This document shows, piece by piece, positions 1 to 4,928 of a stretch of DNA of 64,000 nt (within the stretch, counting starts at the first letter, position 1; each line of letters opens with the position of its first letter). The DNA is from Stigmatella aurantiaca. GTDB taxonomy: Bacteria; Myxococcota; Myxococcia; Myxococcales; Myxococcaceae. The stretch spans positions 124,001-188,000 of the forward strand of contig NZ_FOAP01000001.1 of assembly GCF_900109545.1 (NCBI RefSeq), in the 5' to 3' direction. The notes beneath the pieces are model-generated. The model saw only the letters and a list, made by a program, of their open reading frames with translations, did not search any database and had not been told where the DNA came from. Made by a program: the position numbers and the translations under genes.

Positions 1-218
1 CGCTCGCAGGCGGCGGCCATGGTGACGAACTCCCGGCCGGTGAAGGTGCCATGCGGCGAATCGGAGAGGGGGGCCGCCGGGGTGGCCGGGGCCTCGTCCG
101 AGGCCGAGCGCTTGCAGGCCGTAGGGCCCAGCAGCACCACGCCCCCGCCGAAGAAGGTCAGCCGCTGGATGAAGGAGCGCCGGGACAGGCGCCTCGAAGA
201 AGGGCGTTTGCGGGCCAT
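1..218 (-). CDS. Tat-exported lipoprotein, gluconate 2-dehydrogenase subunit 3-like (partial)
   Basis: Only the first 72 codons lie in the window; the gene runs off the left edge. The N-terminus carries a twin-arginine motif (SRRSFIQRL) followed by a hydrophobic stretch and a lipobox-like GPTAC, so a folded lipoprotein exported by Tat is predicted. Downstream the segment FTGREFVTMAAACER resembles the start of the gluconate 2-dehydrogenase subunit 3 (DUF1800-unrelated) family, in which a small Tat-exported subunit partners a GMC-type flavoprotein dehydrogenase. The partner would lie outside the window, to the left. The ATG at 218 is chosen because the Tat motif follows directly. The family call rests on a short segment and is moderate. 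Confidence 0.6.
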   Translation of the reverse strand, partial: MARKRPSSRRLSRRSFIQRLTFFGGGVVLLGPTACKRSASDEAPATPAAPLSDSPHGTFTGREFVTMAAACE

Positions 219-313
219 GCGGGGGCCAGCCTAGGCCGGTCCTCGGGCTTTGGAAACCGGGCCGGTAGCGTAGGATGGCGGCCTTCAACTCGGCCGACAC
301 CGGAGGAGACGTG

Positions 314-1636
314 ATGAGACGGCATGCATGGGGACTGTGCCTGATGCTCGCGCTGGCAGGCTGCAAGGGCGACGACGGCGGCGGTGGCGGCGGGGGCAAC
401 AACGACGCGGGGCCCAACCCCGTGGATCCGAACAAGGACTCGCCCTACCAGCGCTTCACGCTGGATGCGGCGAGCACCGACCTGCAACCGCTGTCGCTCG
501 CGGTAGGGCCTGGGGACACGGTCGGCGTGGCGTACTTCTTCCGGGTGAGTGATGCCCAGTACGAGATTCGCTACGTCCAGACGGGCAGTGACGGCCGGGT
601 CTCCACGCCCGAGACGATCACCACCGTGAAGATGGTGTACGGCCTGTCGCTGGCGTTCGACGGGAACGGCCGCCCGGCGGTGGCCTACCTCGGGGGCGCG
701 GAGGATCCCGCCGCGGCCTTCTGGTTCCTGAATGACCAGGAGGTGGCCTACCGGAACGCCTCGGGCCAGTGGGTGAAGAAGGTGGCCGTGCGCGAGAGCA
801 ACGAGGCGAAGGCCGGCAACCCGGTCAGCGACAGCGGCAACGTCGTGGGCATCAACCCCGCGCTCGTCTTCAATGGGACGCAGGCGATCGTCGCTTACCG
901 CGACGTCCACCAGGGCCAGTTCGACAAGCAGGACTATGAAGCGAGCGATCTGGAAGTGGCCGTGGGAGGCCCGGACACCTGGACGCACGCCGTCGTGTCC
1001 GCGGGGGGCAACGACAAGCGCGCCTACGGTGGCCACATCGACATGGTGATGGCGGACGGGCAGCCGGCGCTGGTGCATGACCAAGTGTCCGGGAGCGCAG
1101 ATGGTACAGGCTCGAACGTCCTGTTCCAGCGGCGCAACGCGAACGGCACCTGGACGAAGGATGTGCAGGTGCAGGCGGTGTCCAATGCGCAGCGGGGCGC
1201 CTCGCTGGCGTGGGACCCGGTGCTGGGCTTCGGCATCGCCGTGGTGGAGCGCTCCGCCAACCGGCTCACGTTCACGTCCTGCGAGGGAACGTCGGTCTCG
1301 CGGTGCGCCGCCGAGGGGGACTGGACCGAGCCGGATCCCGTCTACGCGTCGGGCACGGGCGGCTGGTACCCATCGCTGGCCATCGACCCCACGACGCATG
1401 ATCCGTCCATCGCCTTCTACATCTGCTCGAACGCGTCGGGGATCAACGAGGGCAGCTGCAACCCGAACGACGACGAGCTGCGGGTGACCACGCGCATCGC
1501 AGGCAACTGGCGCGAGGCGTTGGTGGACGCGGACGGCGGCTGGTCTCCGAAGATGGCGTACCTCTCCACGGGGCAGCGGGTCATCGCCTACCGGGCGCCA
1601 GGAAGCGGCGCCCTCAAGCTCGCGGTGGAGCGATGA
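314..1636 (+). CDS. Lipoprotein of unknown function (440 aa)
   Basis: A type II signal peptide (MRRHAWGLCLMLALAGC) is followed by a Gly/Asp/Asn-rich linker, then about 400 residues rich in W, Y and short beta-like segments (for example RPAVAYLGGAED, QAIVAYRDV, VIAYRAPG). The recurring 'xxVAYxxx' spacing suggests a secreted beta-propeller or beta-sandwich protein, but I recognise no named domain. The start at 314 is preferred over an in-frame ATG at 275 because GGAGGA lies just upstream and the signal peptide begins there. The stop overlaps the ATG of the next lipoprotein gene (ATGA), so the two are probably co-translated. Confidence 0.75.
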   Translation: MRRHAWGLCLMLALAGCKGDDGGGGGGGNNDAGPNPVDPNKDSPYQRFTLDAASTDLQPLSLAVGPGDTVGVAYFFRVSDAQYEIRYVQTGSDGRVSTPETITTVKMVYGLSLAFDGNGRPAVAYLGGAEDPAAAFWFLNDQEVAYRNASGQWVKKVAVRESNEAKAGNPVSDSGNVVGINPALVFNGTQAIVAYRDVHQGQFDKQDYEASDLEVAVGGPDTWTHAVVSAGGNDKRAYGGHIDMVMADGQPALVHDQVSGSADGTGSNVLFQRRNANGTWTKDVQVQAVSNAQRGASLAWDPVLGFGIAVVERSANRLTFTSCEGTSVSRCAAEGDWTEPDPVYASGTGGWYPSLAIDPTTHDPSIAFYICSNASGINEGSCNPNDDELRVTTRIAGNWREALVDADGGWSPKMAYLSTGQRVIAYRAPGSGALKLAVER

Positions 1637-2178
1637 GCCAGGCGGGCCCGGGGCTGAGAAGAGGGCTCGTGGGCCTGCTGGCGGCAGGGGGGCTGCTGGG
1701 CTGCGGCGGCCCCAACTCGCTGTCGGGCAGCGTGGAGGAACTCTTTTCGCTGGAGGTCTCGCGCGTGGAAGTGCTGCGCAACGCCGAGGCACTCCAGGTC
1801 AGCTACTACCGGAACGCAGGGCAGGATGTGGACCTGGTGGTGCGCCTCACGCTGGCCACCGAGGGGCTGGACCTGCGGCCCGGCAAGAAGGTGAACCTGG
1901 CGGGCACCACGCCCTCTGGAATGGCCCGGACGACGGTGGTCCACCTGTCGGCAGGAGAGCCCGCCCGGCTCTTCGGGCCGGTGGACAAGGGAGACCTCTC
2001 CCTGGACGAGGGCGGCGGCATCGGTGAGTCCACGAGCGGCGACTTCTCCCTCTCCTTCCAGCGGGGAGACAGCTACGGCGCGGGCCGCAGCCTGGAGGGC
2101 CGTTTCTCCGCCGTGGCGCTGGATGCGGGCTTTGGTCCGGAGCCTCTTCCCCCGGAAGGCATCGTTCCCTCGCCGTGA
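1633..2178 (+). CDS. Small lipoprotein of unknown function (181 aa)
   Basis: Starts inside the stop codon of the preceding lipoprotein gene (ATGA overlap), which indicates an operon. The N-terminus is a signal peptide ending in a lipobox (GGLLGCGG). The mature part of about 155 residues has alternating hydrophobic beta-like segments (VEVLRNAEALQVSYYRN, DLVVRLTLAT) and is glycine-rich at the end; no known domain is recognised. Both proteins should sit in the cell envelope, so they may act together, but nothing in the sequence gives the function. Confidence 0.72.
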   Translation: MSQAGPGLRRGLVGLLAAGGLLGCGGPNSLSGSVEELFSLEVSRVEVLRNAEALQVSYYRNAGQDVDLVVRLTLATEGLDLRPGKKVNLAGTTPSGMARTTVVHLSAGEPARLFGPVDKGDLSLDEGGGIGESTSGDFSLSFQRGDSYGAGRSLEGRFSAVALDAGFGPEPLPPEGIVPSP

Positions 2179-2282
2179 GTCCAGGCGGGGCCGGGTAACC
2201 CAAGGGGGAGGGCTGACAGGCGGTGACTCAGGGAGTAGGGTAGGAGCCGGTGAAGGCAACCGGCCGCCCCTGCGAGGCTCCC

Positions 2283-3662
2283 ATGGACACGGCATTTCCC
2301 GAGAAGCTCCCCCCTGGCACCATCATCGGTTCCTGGCAGGTCGTCAGCGGCGCGGGCCGGGGAGCGTACGGCGCCGTCTACCGCGCCGTGCTGGAGGGGC
2401 AGGAGGCGGCGGGGTGGGTGGCCCTCAAGGTGGCCCTGCGCTCCCGGGAGGAGCGCTTCGAGCGCGAAGCGGAGGTGCTGTCCCGGATTCTCCACCCGGG
2501 AGTTCCCCGCTTGCTCGCCCGGGGGGAATGGACGGGAGGCCGCTGGCGGGTACCTCATCCCTATCTCGTCATGGAGTGGGTGGAGGGGCTTCCCCTGTAC
2601 CAATGGGCCTGGGAGTGCTCGCCCAGCTCGCGCCAGGTTCTCTGGCTGCTCGCGCAGTTGTGCCGTGCCCTTCAGGCAATCCACGCGGCCCAATGCCTGC
2701 ACCGGGATGTGAAGGGCGCCAATGTCCTCGTGGGGGCCAATGGAAAGGCGTCCCTGGTGGATTTCGGCTCCGGAACGTACCCGGAGGCACCACCGCTCAC
2801 GGAGGCTCCGCTCGCTCCGGGAACACGGCCCTACCGGAGTCCCCAGGCCCTGCGCCACGCAGCGGCCCACGCGTGGGATGGCGCGCGTTACCAAGCCGGG
2901 CCCGAGGACGATGTGTATGCCTTGGGGGTCACCGCCTACCGGATGGTGACTGGAGTCTATCCGTCACAGGAAGAAGACCCGGCGGTGGGGCAGGGCACAC
3001 GCCAGGAGGCACAGCCTGTCCGGCAACCACCCCATTTGCGCGTTCGCTGGATCATCCCGGAACTCTCGGCGCTCATCGAGCGGATGCTGGCGGAGAGCCC
3101 CTCGGAGCGGGGCAGCGCACGCGAGCTGGCAGACGCGCTGGAGGCTGCGGCGGCCCGGGCGGGCCCTGAGGCGGACTGCTCTCTGGAGACCTCGGCAGGT
3201 TTTCGGCCCGTGGTGGCAGTGGTTCCGGAGCCCCTCGGCTGGCGGACTCCGCTCCGGGCTGGGCTGATCGGGGCTGTACTGGCATGCCTTGTGATTGGCC
3301 TGTCCACACAGCGCGTGTCCGAGCACTCCTGGCCGACGCCCCCAGAAGCGGAGCAACCGGATGCGGGAACGGTGGGCCTGGCCGATGCCTCCGTGCCCCC
3401 AGAAGCGTTGGCCGCAGCAGCGCGCGCCGAGGATGCCCCTCTGCCCGAGGAACTCGTGGCCTTGGAGATGCCCAAGCAGCCGTTCGCTGGACAGAAGCGG
3501 CCGCCGTGCAAACCTCACCGAGAGACAGAAATCCGGGGTGGATGCTGGGCGGCCCTCCTGAATGCTCAGTCTCCGTGTGAGGACGATGGATACGAGTGGG
3601 CCGGGAAATGTTTTCTGCCGGTAAAGGCCCGTCCTCGTCCCGACACGTCGAACTACCCATAG
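2283..3662 (+). CDS. Membrane Ser/Thr protein kinase with Cys-rich C-terminal tail
   Basis: Hanks-type kinase. Visible motifs are the glycine loop GAGRGAYGAVYRA (about residue 23), the ATP-binding Lys in VALKVALR, HRDVKGANV (about 142), the DFG (VDFGSGT) and a substrate-positioning segment TRPYRSPQ. A single membrane helix (LIGAVLACLVIGL, about 330-350) separates the cytoplasmic kinase from an outer segment. The tail ends in a compact motif with four cysteines (RPPC, GGCW, SPC, GKCFLPV). I chose ATG 2283 (GAGG 5 bases upstream); a GTG at 2250 with AGGAG only 3 bases away would add 11 residues. It probably phosphorylates Ser/Thr on unknown targets. The downstream orphan gene starts 77 bases after the stop and may be co-transcribed. 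Confidence 0.88.
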   Translation: MDTAFPEKLPPGTIIGSWQVVSGAGRGAYGAVYRAVLEGQEAAGWVALKVALRSREERFEREAEVLSRILHPGVPRLLARGEWTGGRWRVPHPYLVMEWVEGLPLYQWAWECSPSSRQVLWLLAQLCRALQAIHAAQCLHRDVKGANVLVGANGKASLVDFGSGTYPEAPPLTEAPLAPGTRPYRSPQALRHAAAHAWDGARYQAGPEDDVYALGVTAYRMVTGVYPSQEEDPAVGQGTRQEAQPVRQPPHLRVRWIIPELSALIERMLAESPSERGSARELADALEAAAARAGPEADCSLETSAGFRPVVAVVPEPLGWRTPLRAGLIGAVLACLVIGLSTQRVSEHSWPTPPEAEQPDAGTVGLADASVPPEALAAAARAEDAPLPEELVALEMPKQPFAGQKRPPCKPHRETEIRGGCWAALLNAQSPCEDDGYEWAGKCFLPVKARPRPDTSNYP

Positions 3663-3739
3663 GTCTCTTCCTGTTGGACGTGGATCTACGGGATGATGCC
3701 GAAATTGGACCTTTGATGATTTGTCGGCTCGGTTGGCGG

Positions 3740-4384
3740 ATGTCGAATGAGGAGAGCAGCCGTGTCCGGAGCCGCCTCAAGGCTTTGGTTCACCAGTATT
3801 ACGCCAAGGGTTTCCCGGCCGAAGAGGACGACTACAGCCAACCTCTCCTGGTCTATCAGCGTACACCGGAGCACCAGCGGTGGCGCGCGTGCTGGGAAAA
3901 AGCCTTGGCCTGGAACGAGTGGCGAACCTTGCTCAAGGAACTGCCACGCGCATTTCCGGGGGATGGCGTAGGCGCCGGTACACAGCCGTTTGCTTCCGCC
4001 TGCCTCCGTTGCTTTGTTTATCGCAAGGAAGTTCAGCCTAGGGGAGAGATCTTCATTACTCGTATTGCCGCTGCCGTGAGCGTTCTTGCTCCGCTCTATG
4101 TCGTTTACGGTACGGCTCAGAAATATGGAGAAGAGGGGGGGAGCGAAGAACAGCGCCGGTATCGCCCCTCCCGCCCTGCGCTTTCCTTCGAATTCCCAGG
4201 CGCTCTGAAAGCTGAAGCTGATGCGCTCTCCCGTCTTGTCGAGCAAAGCCTGGGGTGCCGTCCATTTCCCCTGGCTTTGGCGCAAGTGCCTTTGCCTGGG
4301 ATTCGAGTCGGATTCTTCAATGGGGAGCAGGCGCCGACGCTGCTCGATGCGCTCTTCTCTGACGATTTGGAGAACCTTCCGTAA
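3740..4384 (+). CDS. Orphan protein of unknown function, lower GC than neighbours
   Basis: I do not recognise a named family. The protein (about 214 aa) is soluble, with a charged helical N-terminus (RSRLKALVHQYYAKGFPAEEDD), a Trp-rich central part (RWRACWEKALAWNEW) and a hydrophobic strand APLYVVYGTAQKY. Hand counts over three 60-base lines inside the gene give 57, 63 and 53 % GC, against 77 % in a sampled line of the upstream kinase, which fits recent acquisition or relaxed codon selection. The start is uncertain: in-frame ATGs occur at 3596, 3716 and 3740, none with a convincing ribosome binding site; 3740 avoids overlap with the kinase and begins at a well-formed soluble N-terminus. Confidence 0.6.
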   Translation: MSNEESSRVRSRLKALVHQYYAKGFPAEEDDYSQPLLVYQRTPEHQRWRACWEKALAWNEWRTLLKELPRAFPGDGVGAGTQPFASACLRCFVYRKEVQPRGEIFITRIAAAVSVLAPLYVVYGTAQKYGEEGGSEEQRRYRPSRPALSFEFPGALKAEADALSRLVEQSLGCRPFPLALAQVPLPGIRVGFFNGEQAPTLLDALFSDDLENLP

Positions 4385-4421
4385 CGATGGAGGTTTCTGT
4401 TGGATGCAACCGTACGGAAGC

Positions 4422-4928
4422 CTACGGGGTGGCCACCACCTCGAACACCTCGGCCTCCGGAAGCGTCAGCACCTCGCCGCCGGCGTCCGCCAGGTGCTCG
4501 CGCGGGACATTGAGATAGCGCTCGAAGAAGCGCGCGGCGGGCTTCAGCGTGACGGACTGGCCCGTCGCCCGGTTGCGGAAGGCCGTGGCGGTGCCATCGG
4601 GACGGGCCACCTCCGCGAGGGACAGGTTGAGCTTGCCGAGGCTGGCGCCCGTCGCGGCCGCTGCCCCATCCGCGATGCAGGCGAACTGCACCTGTGGGGG
4701 GCTGTGGTGCAGGACCTCCAGATCGAAGCTGCCCGCCGGGAGCCCCAGGTGCTGAAGCGCGTACTGGCCCATGCGGTAGCCCGCGACGGCCCAGGGGCCC
4801 GCGCCCCCATGAACGGCGGCCACCCGGCTCAGCGCCTCCGGGCGGAGGGCGGGAGCGTGCGGGGAGCCTGCGCACCCCAGCGCAGAGAGGAGGACCAGGG
4901 CAGGAAGCAAGCGGGGCGAGGCAGACAT
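4422..4928 (-). CDS. Lipoprotein with FmdE-like domain
   Basis: A lipoprotein signal peptide (LLSALGCAGS) precedes a domain resembling the FmdE / formylmethanofuran dehydrogenase subunit E family: HGGAGPWAVAGYRMGQYAL matches the family's 'HGHxxPGxxxGYRM' start, and FACIADGAAAATGASLGKLNL matches its 'xxDGxQxxTGxTxGKGN' middle. In canonical FmdE proteins His and Cys residues bind metal; here the Cys of the second motif is partly retained (FAC) but the first HGH is HGG. A molybdenum-pathway role is therefore doubtful; the protein is envelope-anchored. ATG 4928 is chosen because the signal peptide starts there. Confidence 0.65.
   Translation of the reverse strand: MSASPRLLPALVLLSALGCAGSPHAPALRPEALSRVAAVHGGAGPWAVAGYRMGQYALQHLGLPAGSFDLEVLHHSPPQVQFACIADGAAAATGASLGKLNLSLAEVARPDGTATAFRNRATGQSVTLKPAARFFERYLNVPREHLADAGGEVLTLPEAEVFEVVATP

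Follow-up and report, generated by a model that had tools for sequence, protein, structure and literature searches.

Myxobacteria have very large repertoires of protein kinases, the inputs of which are mostly unknown. The abstract of PMC2887360 says likewise of the numbers of myxobacterial kinases. The domains named as tethered to kinases in passages of PMC2877116 include PASTA and TPR, and none of those named there is like the one described below. A second class of system relevant here is the SitA lipoprotein toxins, which move by outer membrane exchange and have SitI immunity genes in the same operon; according to passages of PMC5562445 and PMC8546572 there are six families, with 25–80 loci per genome. 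We have analyzed a locus in a 64,000-nucleotide stretch of the Stigmatella aurantiaca genome (assembly GCF_900109545.1, contig NZ_FOAP01000001.1, forward-strand positions 124,001 to 188,000), which we call the window and number from its first letter. The locus has a membrane Ser/Thr kinase gene encoding a C-terminal tail with four cysteines (Cys), followed by a gene of low guanine-plus-cytosine (GC) content that we term the orphan.

Judged from the sequences, the tail is a real, recurring and unmodelled C-terminal domain on membrane Ser/Thr kinases. The orphan is most likely the stray half of an unrelated gene pair, and not the partner of the kinase. The explanation as a whole, in which a kinase family with a double Cys-hairpin shares small sites with the strayed half of a lipoprotein gene pair, is the one that we consider probable on balance. 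An earlier note, made from the letters of the window, had proposed a sensor kinase with an acquired partner. The recurring unmodelled tail on membrane kinases survives the comparison with other genomes, while the partnership of kinase and orphan does not. What is new here is that the Cys-hairpin domain is a duplicated one, that it has spread to proteins in which no kinase domain is recognized, and that it lies in tight adjacency to immunity-type genes.

The kinase and its double Cys-hairpin tail

The kinase gene (2283–3662; this and all the features described below are on the forward strand) translates to 459 residues. Residues 22–283 (2346–3131) match the Pfam Pkinase model with E = 6e-29 (101.7 bits, cut-off 31.7). 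The catalytic Lys is K49, inside an ALK motif starting at residue 47, with HRD at 140 and DFG at 160. From its sequence this is an ordinary, active-looking Hanks-type Ser/Thr protein kinase with an intact catalytic core. A single membrane helix is predicted at residues 324–342 (3252–3308), where the hydropathy reaches its maximum of 1.95. Between the helix and the tail lies a linker motif DAGTVGLADA (3360–3389), and similar strings are seen by eye, uncounted, in many paralogues in the same genome. The tail domain comprises residues 392–459 (3456–3659), with a cysteine pattern PPC-GGCW-SPC-GKC. The Pkinase core, the one predicted helix and this pattern bear out the earlier description of a Ser/Thr kinase with a four-Cys tail beyond the membrane.

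On searching the genome from which the window comes (the own genome) with the tail, we obtained 30 matches with E ≤ 0.00124, and a profile search likewise gave 30, many more than chance would give. One doubtful tail-like match (E = 0.317) was left out of the counts. Twenty-eight of the 30 tails are on full kinases, so that the tail does occur on other kinases, as the note had proposed to check; the remaining two lack a kinase domain. The catalytic Lys and HRD are present in all 28 kinases and DFG in 26. At least four cysteines lie within the last 85 residues in 27 of the 28, and 22 exceed a hydropathy of 1.5, a simple threshold for a membrane helix. The exception in the cysteine count (L006, L045 5629–6972, on contig C24) is a close paralogue of the window kinase whose tail no longer has its first hairpin. 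It stands behind a pair of genes for a DUF6310 lipoprotein and DUF5953, on the same strand. This paralogue matches window positions 2192–3466 and 3573–3658 with 82–83% identity, and since the match stops at 3658 the similarity ends where the kinase gene ends.

Alignment A1 comprises 26 tails, 25 of the 30 from the own genome plus one from genome G037, and has as invariant residues G, Q, four C, W, P and S. A tail outside that alignment (L015) has Arg at the otherwise invariant Gly. In a wider alignment of 45 tails (A3, with the window tail as first row) invariance is limited to the four Cys and a single Trp. The tail consists of one unit present twice. When its halves are compared as profiles, again with the window tail as first row, they score 24.9 (E = 1.4e-7), and none of 200 column shuffles exceeds 15.1. 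Unit 1 (PPC...EIRGGCW) is at 3495–3560 and unit 2 (SPC...YEWAGKCF) at 3570–3626. A predicted model of the tail has two short hairpins with their strands at these positions (predicted local distance difference test (pLDDT) 81.8, predicted template modelling score (pTM) 0.63). We define the double Cys-hairpin family by two units, four Cys and a Trp after the second Cys, all of which the window tail has.

No model in Pfam or NCBIfam matches the tail, and the kinase falls short of the PknB_PASTA cut-off, in agreement with the earlier view that the tail is not a known sensor domain. Comparison of the tail with solved structures gave no Foldseek match at 0.001 and no Z of 2 or more. The best profile match in the PDB is the rhodocytin beta chain, which is not significant (E = 0.15). 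No description of the tail was found among published titles and the beginnings of abstracts, a scope that does not take in the main myxobacterial kinome paper, Perez 2008.

Across the phylum we found tail matches in 54 of 195 genomes, all in Myxococcaceae (8 of 90 genera). Of the first-look candidates in each genome the scan scored the best 31; its high copy numbers are therefore lower limits, and absences outside Myxococcaceae are provisional. Genomes with the tail have from 1 to 67 copies, with 67 in G037. Not all are kinases. In G003 and G034 the tail is mostly on open reading frames (ORFs) of ~250–300 residues, with a few longer. In 20 fetched regions the forms from G003, G034, G028 and G060 are short proteins in which an N-terminal part is followed by a hydrophobic stretch and then by the tail (two are fragments); those from G063 are full kinases, except for one tail ORF of ~200 residues behind a kinase. 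Thirteen further genomes gave seven tail kinases and eleven shorter tail forms. Over G003, G034 and nine loci from further genomes, the tail is mostly on ORFs of ~250–340 residues. Four of four short tail proteins tested have no Pfam family above cut-off. An origin of their cytosolic part from a kinase lobe was considered and rejected; the part is collinear with the N-lobe, but with E = 0.015 and a probability of 3%. On these sequences the tail looks like a portable module, and its presence on proteins without a recognized kinase domain suggests that the shared function is probably that of the tail, not catalysis.

Some further tail genes deserve mention. On contig C28 of the own genome (L046 6301–6876) a gene that encodes nothing but a membrane helix, the linker and the tail directly adjoins the stop codon of a full tail kinase. 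Short tail frames that are closely spaced in the same way are also found in G036, G037 and G038. Kinase-less tail genes of this type could be either partners or duplication remnants. A record titled Comamonas sp. KCTC 72670 (BNCN01000003.1, L175) has a full Myxococcus-type tail kinase with 86% identity; perhaps the assembly is mislabelled. Lastly, Myxococcus xanthus strain AM003 has a kinase that is 77% identical to that of the window, and the family is thus open to genetic testing.

The orphan gene and the lipoprotein gene beside its relatives

The orphan ORF as listed begins at 3596 and encodes 262 residues. In alignments with strong full-length relatives, the match sets in only at about residue 43–65, and start codons at the position equivalent to the ATG at 3740 are available in 20 related genes. 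The gene is therefore most likely 3740–4384, encoding 214 residues (family alignment A2). With this start it does not overlap the kinase gene; there are 77 bases between them, on the same strand. The GC content in 300-base intervals is 0.67–0.73 over 2101–3600, falls to 0.58–0.62 over 3451–4500, and is 0.67–0.74 thereafter. At third codon positions it is 0.61 for the orphan ORF and 0.76 for that of the kinase, compared with 0.83–0.98 for the other called genes of the first 12 kb. Searches of Pfam, NCBIfam and PADLOC with the orphan returned no family at E up to 1. The low GC content and lack of a recognized family thus agree with what had been noted earlier. A scan of the genome_contigs set with the orphan as query gave no relative.

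Relatives of the orphan are present in 42 of 96 Myxococcaceae genomes, in 7 of 26 genera. We fetched 20 of these loci. In 16 of them one and the same type of small lipoprotein gene lies directly upstream on the same strand and overlaps the orphan relative, by 4 bases at nine loci, 8 at six and 20 at one. Such gene overlaps are typical of translational coupling. Of the other four loci, one begins at a contig edge (L097), one is decayed (L110), one has no match to the lipoprotein (L113) and one shows a rearranged order of the parts (L114). Among window ORFs of at least 50 residues there is no relative of the partner lipoprotein, and the kinase gene is directly upstream of the orphan instead. From gene order, GC content and copy pattern we take the orphan to be, most likely, the immunity-like half of a lipoprotein pair. 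A frame-broken relative of the orphan is found on contig C10 of the own genome (L036 1–4200). Its neighbours presumably resemble a lipoprotein toxin and double-CxxC immunity genes, with none named above cut-off by Pfam or NCBIfam.

Alternatively, the role of the protein in the lipoprotein pair could be that of a toxin, or of an ordinary enzyme, and not of an immunity protein. No immunity family matches it by sequence. In three genomes of one genus, g19 (L104, L105 and L106), the lipoprotein–orphan pair is flanked by the same core-like genes each time, which is not how a hypervariable toxin locus looks. The predicted fold of the orphan is confident (pLDDT 91.7, pTM 0.88), and the best look-alikes are unrelated, weak and mixed. 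The best of them is Crl, with Z = 6.4, a root-mean-square deviation of 3.3 over 104 aligned residues and 2% identity, where Z below 8 may reflect only a common arrangement. On the other side, the order with the lipoprotein first, the overlap, low GC, multiple copies and decayed copies all resemble lipoprotein toxin–immunity loci. We regard a toxin or enzyme as possible but unlikely, and an immunity-type protein remains our preferred assignment.

Tail function and the neighbouring immunity-type genes

In the explanation that we favour, the kinase belongs to a large family of membrane proteins, confined to Myxococcaceae as far as tested, that carry the duplicated Cys-hairpin module. The tail would be periplasmic, each hairpin would probably be closed by a disulphide within it (C409–C421 and C432–C443), and the two hairpins together would make up a binding head for a ligand or partner. 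Where the head is on a kinase, its binding would alter kinase association and signalling. Versions without a recognized kinase domain would retain the binding head alone. The orphan would be the cytosolic second gene of a translationally coupled lipoprotein–cytosolic pair, most likely of immunity type, which here lacks its lipoprotein gene. Its place after the kinase would then come from a tendency of both kinds of gene to settle in the same small sites.

The tail might instead be a handle for anchoring or trafficking, held by the cell wall, the outer membrane or a periplasmic protease acting at the C-terminus, and not a sensor. In 20 of the 28 tail kinases of the own genome the C-terminus lies exactly 17 residues from where the final Cys-Tyr begins, and by eye the window kinase, which has Cys-Phe, shows the same spacing. 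Many tail paralogues finish with R-P-x-T-S plus two to three residues; the end of the window kinase is RPDTSNYP (3636–3659). The serine of the end motif (position 65) is nearly invariant in the 45 aligned tails. From the constant end spacing, the free C-terminus itself may be recognized. The retention of the tail on proteins without a recognized kinase domain also suits a handle. However, the residues that are fully invariant all lie within the hairpins, and several of the short forms end differently from the own-genome tail kinases. We think a handle unlikely, and prefer a binding head.

In the own genome the neighbourhoods of the tail genes include genes for Imm11, Imm52, TsiV, DUF5953, DUF6310 and AHH-nuclease proteins (Pfam matches of ten proteins, nine of them from the neighbourhoods), the immunity meaning of names such as Imm11 and SitI being taken from models and papers. 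Some of the neighbouring proteins look by eye like lipoproteins. We counted such neighbours in five genomes from four genera. Of 189 tail loci, 27 have a gene of the Imm11, DUF5953, TsiV or orphan family at a distance of no more than 1.5 kb, where 4.2 are expected from uniform placement of the tail loci. For the own genome, which is in 61 contigs, the immunity positions were randomized for the expectation. The 189 loci derive from 194 tails, tandem tails less than 1.5 kb apart being counted once; fragmented immunity genes were merged, and one TsiV piece below cut-off was kept. The 27 include the window locus, which had prompted the count. By genome the loci with such a neighbour number 7 of 29 (G000), 9 of 65 (G037), 4 of 42 (G034), 3 of 24 (G063) and 4 of 29 (G003). 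The excess is weakest in G034 (4 against 1.35 expected, P = 0.04) and in G063, where within 500 bp there is 1 against 0.25 (P = 0.22). All four families are individually enriched beside tail loci. For Imm11, 11 of 129 genes are near a tail locus (1.71 expected), for DUF5953 10 of 79 (1.29 expected) and for TsiV 6 of 72 (1.06 expected); the orphan family is considered below.

In the four genomes other than that of the window the excess depends strongly on distance. It is 20-fold within 500 bp, 4.5- to 4.7-fold at 500–3000 bp, 1.3- to 1.9-fold at 3–12 kb, and 0.7–0.9 beyond. Within 500 bp in the same four genomes there are nine immunity-type genes 3' of the tail gene and seven on the 5' side. 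Of the 20 nearest neighbours at up to 500 bp in the five genomes, ten are convergent at the 3' end and the other three arrangements split the rest. A rule of direction was considered and rejected; the ratio of 3' to 5' neighbours is 12:5 within 3 kb in two genomes and 16:11 within 1.5 kb in five, but the 9:7 just given within 500 bp. Given that both sides and all four arrangements occur, shared insertion sites fit at least as well as a functional link.

The base composition of the tail genes is also relevant. In 22 of 27 motif-picked own-genome tail genes the third-position GC is 0.71–0.82, whereas 233 genes from 20 regions picked by hand have a median of 0.92, so that the tail genes too look like accessory genes. 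As a control for composition in the own genome, 7 of 29 tail loci are near an immunity gene, but none of 42 genes with mid-range third-position GC (one-sided P = 0.0012) and 3 of 312 genes of any kind (one-sided P = 1.6e-6). This agrees with a real excess, although the control is weak in that the 20 hand-picked 20-kb regions held only one immunity gene.

The tight adjacency may reflect either insertion at common sites or a part played by the tail proteins in kin discrimination. It would be a useful marker of small insertion hotspots in the first case, and in the second an early hint that kinase signalling has to do with kin discrimination. On the latter reading tail proteins would act in the conflict associated with outer membrane exchange, together with the lipoprotein toxin and immunity genes beside them, for example as inner-membrane receptors or alarm kinases that respond to incoming lipoproteins. 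The numbers above, with each family enriched, lend it support, as do the three own-genome tail kinases that adjoin a DUF6310 lipoprotein gene plus a DUF5953 gene, and the high and variable copy number of the tail. Set against this are the 162 of 189 tail loci without such a neighbour within 1.5 kb, the weak excess in G034 and its lack of significance within 500 bp in G063, and the occurrence of neighbours on both sides in all arrangements, as shared insertion sites predict. Literature on outer membrane exchange together with serine threonine kinases was sought, and none turned up. We think such a role unlikely. Its more specific form, in which the double Cys-hairpin recognizes lipoproteins delivered by outer membrane exchange and the kinase reports them, is more doubtful again; if true it would account for immunity-type genes lying within 500 bp of tails some 20 times above expectation.

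Several points count against the explanation that we have preferred. The tail model is only moderately confident by both scores. The periplasmic placement comes from a hydropathy estimate, which six of the 28 tail kinases do not pass at 1.5. Three partner lipoproteins (L107, L108 and L099) have no Pfam toxin domain above cut-off, and their four conserved Cys, identified by eye, would be unusual for a nuclease acting in the cytosol; the immunity role is therefore a guess by layout. The orphan family is itself enriched beside tail loci, with at least 3 of 23 genes near one against 0.32 expected, counting the window and, outside the own genome, orphan positions among the matches listed. This leaves some room for a link between kinase and orphan. 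Finally, in a congener (G038, locus L110) the orphan is broken but retains 83% nucleotide identity over window positions 3786–4376, and the downstream gene 88% to 4401–4749, and nothing upstream of this orphan matches window positions 1–3785, so that genes may have been gained or lost on either side.

The same locus bears on whether kinase and orphan are partners, for there is no tail gene in the 14.5 kb fetched around the decayed orphan. Of the 29 tail loci in the own genome, 28 are without an orphan-family gene inside 1.5 kb, and this absence beside other tail kinases, which the earlier note had named as the observation that would tell against its acquired partner, is largely what we find. 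Over the five genomes, and among the orphan matches listed, a gene of this family is the nearest immunity-type gene at three of the 189 tail loci, that of the window included. From the orphan side a tail kinase adjoins just one of the 20 fetched loci, and there is convergent; the recurring neighbour is the lipoprotein gene. A kinase–orphan operon was rejected from synteny together with the family survey. That the two form one functional unit of sensor kinase and acquired partner is thus very improbable, despite their close spacing on the same strand in the window, an orphan-family gene in G037 (L108) that a gap of 70 bases separates from a tail kinase, but which is convergent to it and has a lipoprotein gene of its own, and another in G003 that is 355 bp from a tail on the 5' side.

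Comparison with described systems

The window kinase shares with the PknB/PASTA kinases a cytosolic Hanks kinase, one membrane helix and an outer C-terminal domain. It differs in that the outer part is a double Cys-hairpin of ~68 residues. As a PASTA-type sensor kinase it was rejected, with 98.1 bits against the NCBIfam PknB_PASTA cut-off of 450, and with the best stretch, 56–294, restricted to the kinase part. The kinase domain is also like that of the kinases associated with anti-phage defence and methylation described by the MAD6 and PD-T4-6 models (PADLOC mad6, E = 5.7e-44). The best-matching stretches of these models end short of the window tail, and assignment as the methylation-associated defence kinase MAD6 was rejected at 113.3 bits against an NCBIfam cut-off of 460. 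Unit 2 of the tail is similar to the N-terminal Cys-hairpin of C-type lectin-like domains, with Cys-x10-Cys and G-x-C-Y, which we take to be a resemblance only; no lectin domain then follows in the window tail. A single unmodelled outer domain at up to 67 loci per genome would provide a handle on a whole block of the myxobacterial kinase repertoire.

With respect to SitA/SitI, the window orphan differs in having no lipoprotein gene, and the three partner lipoproteins compared with Pfam show no toxin domain above cut-off. With the lipoprotein gene missing from the window copy, and the toxin activity of the pair putative, we do not class the orphan as a SitI. The likeness is in the organization. 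The relatives of the orphan are the second gene of an overlapping lipoprotein–cytosolic pair, and other lipoprotein and immunity-family genes adjoin some of the tail kinases.

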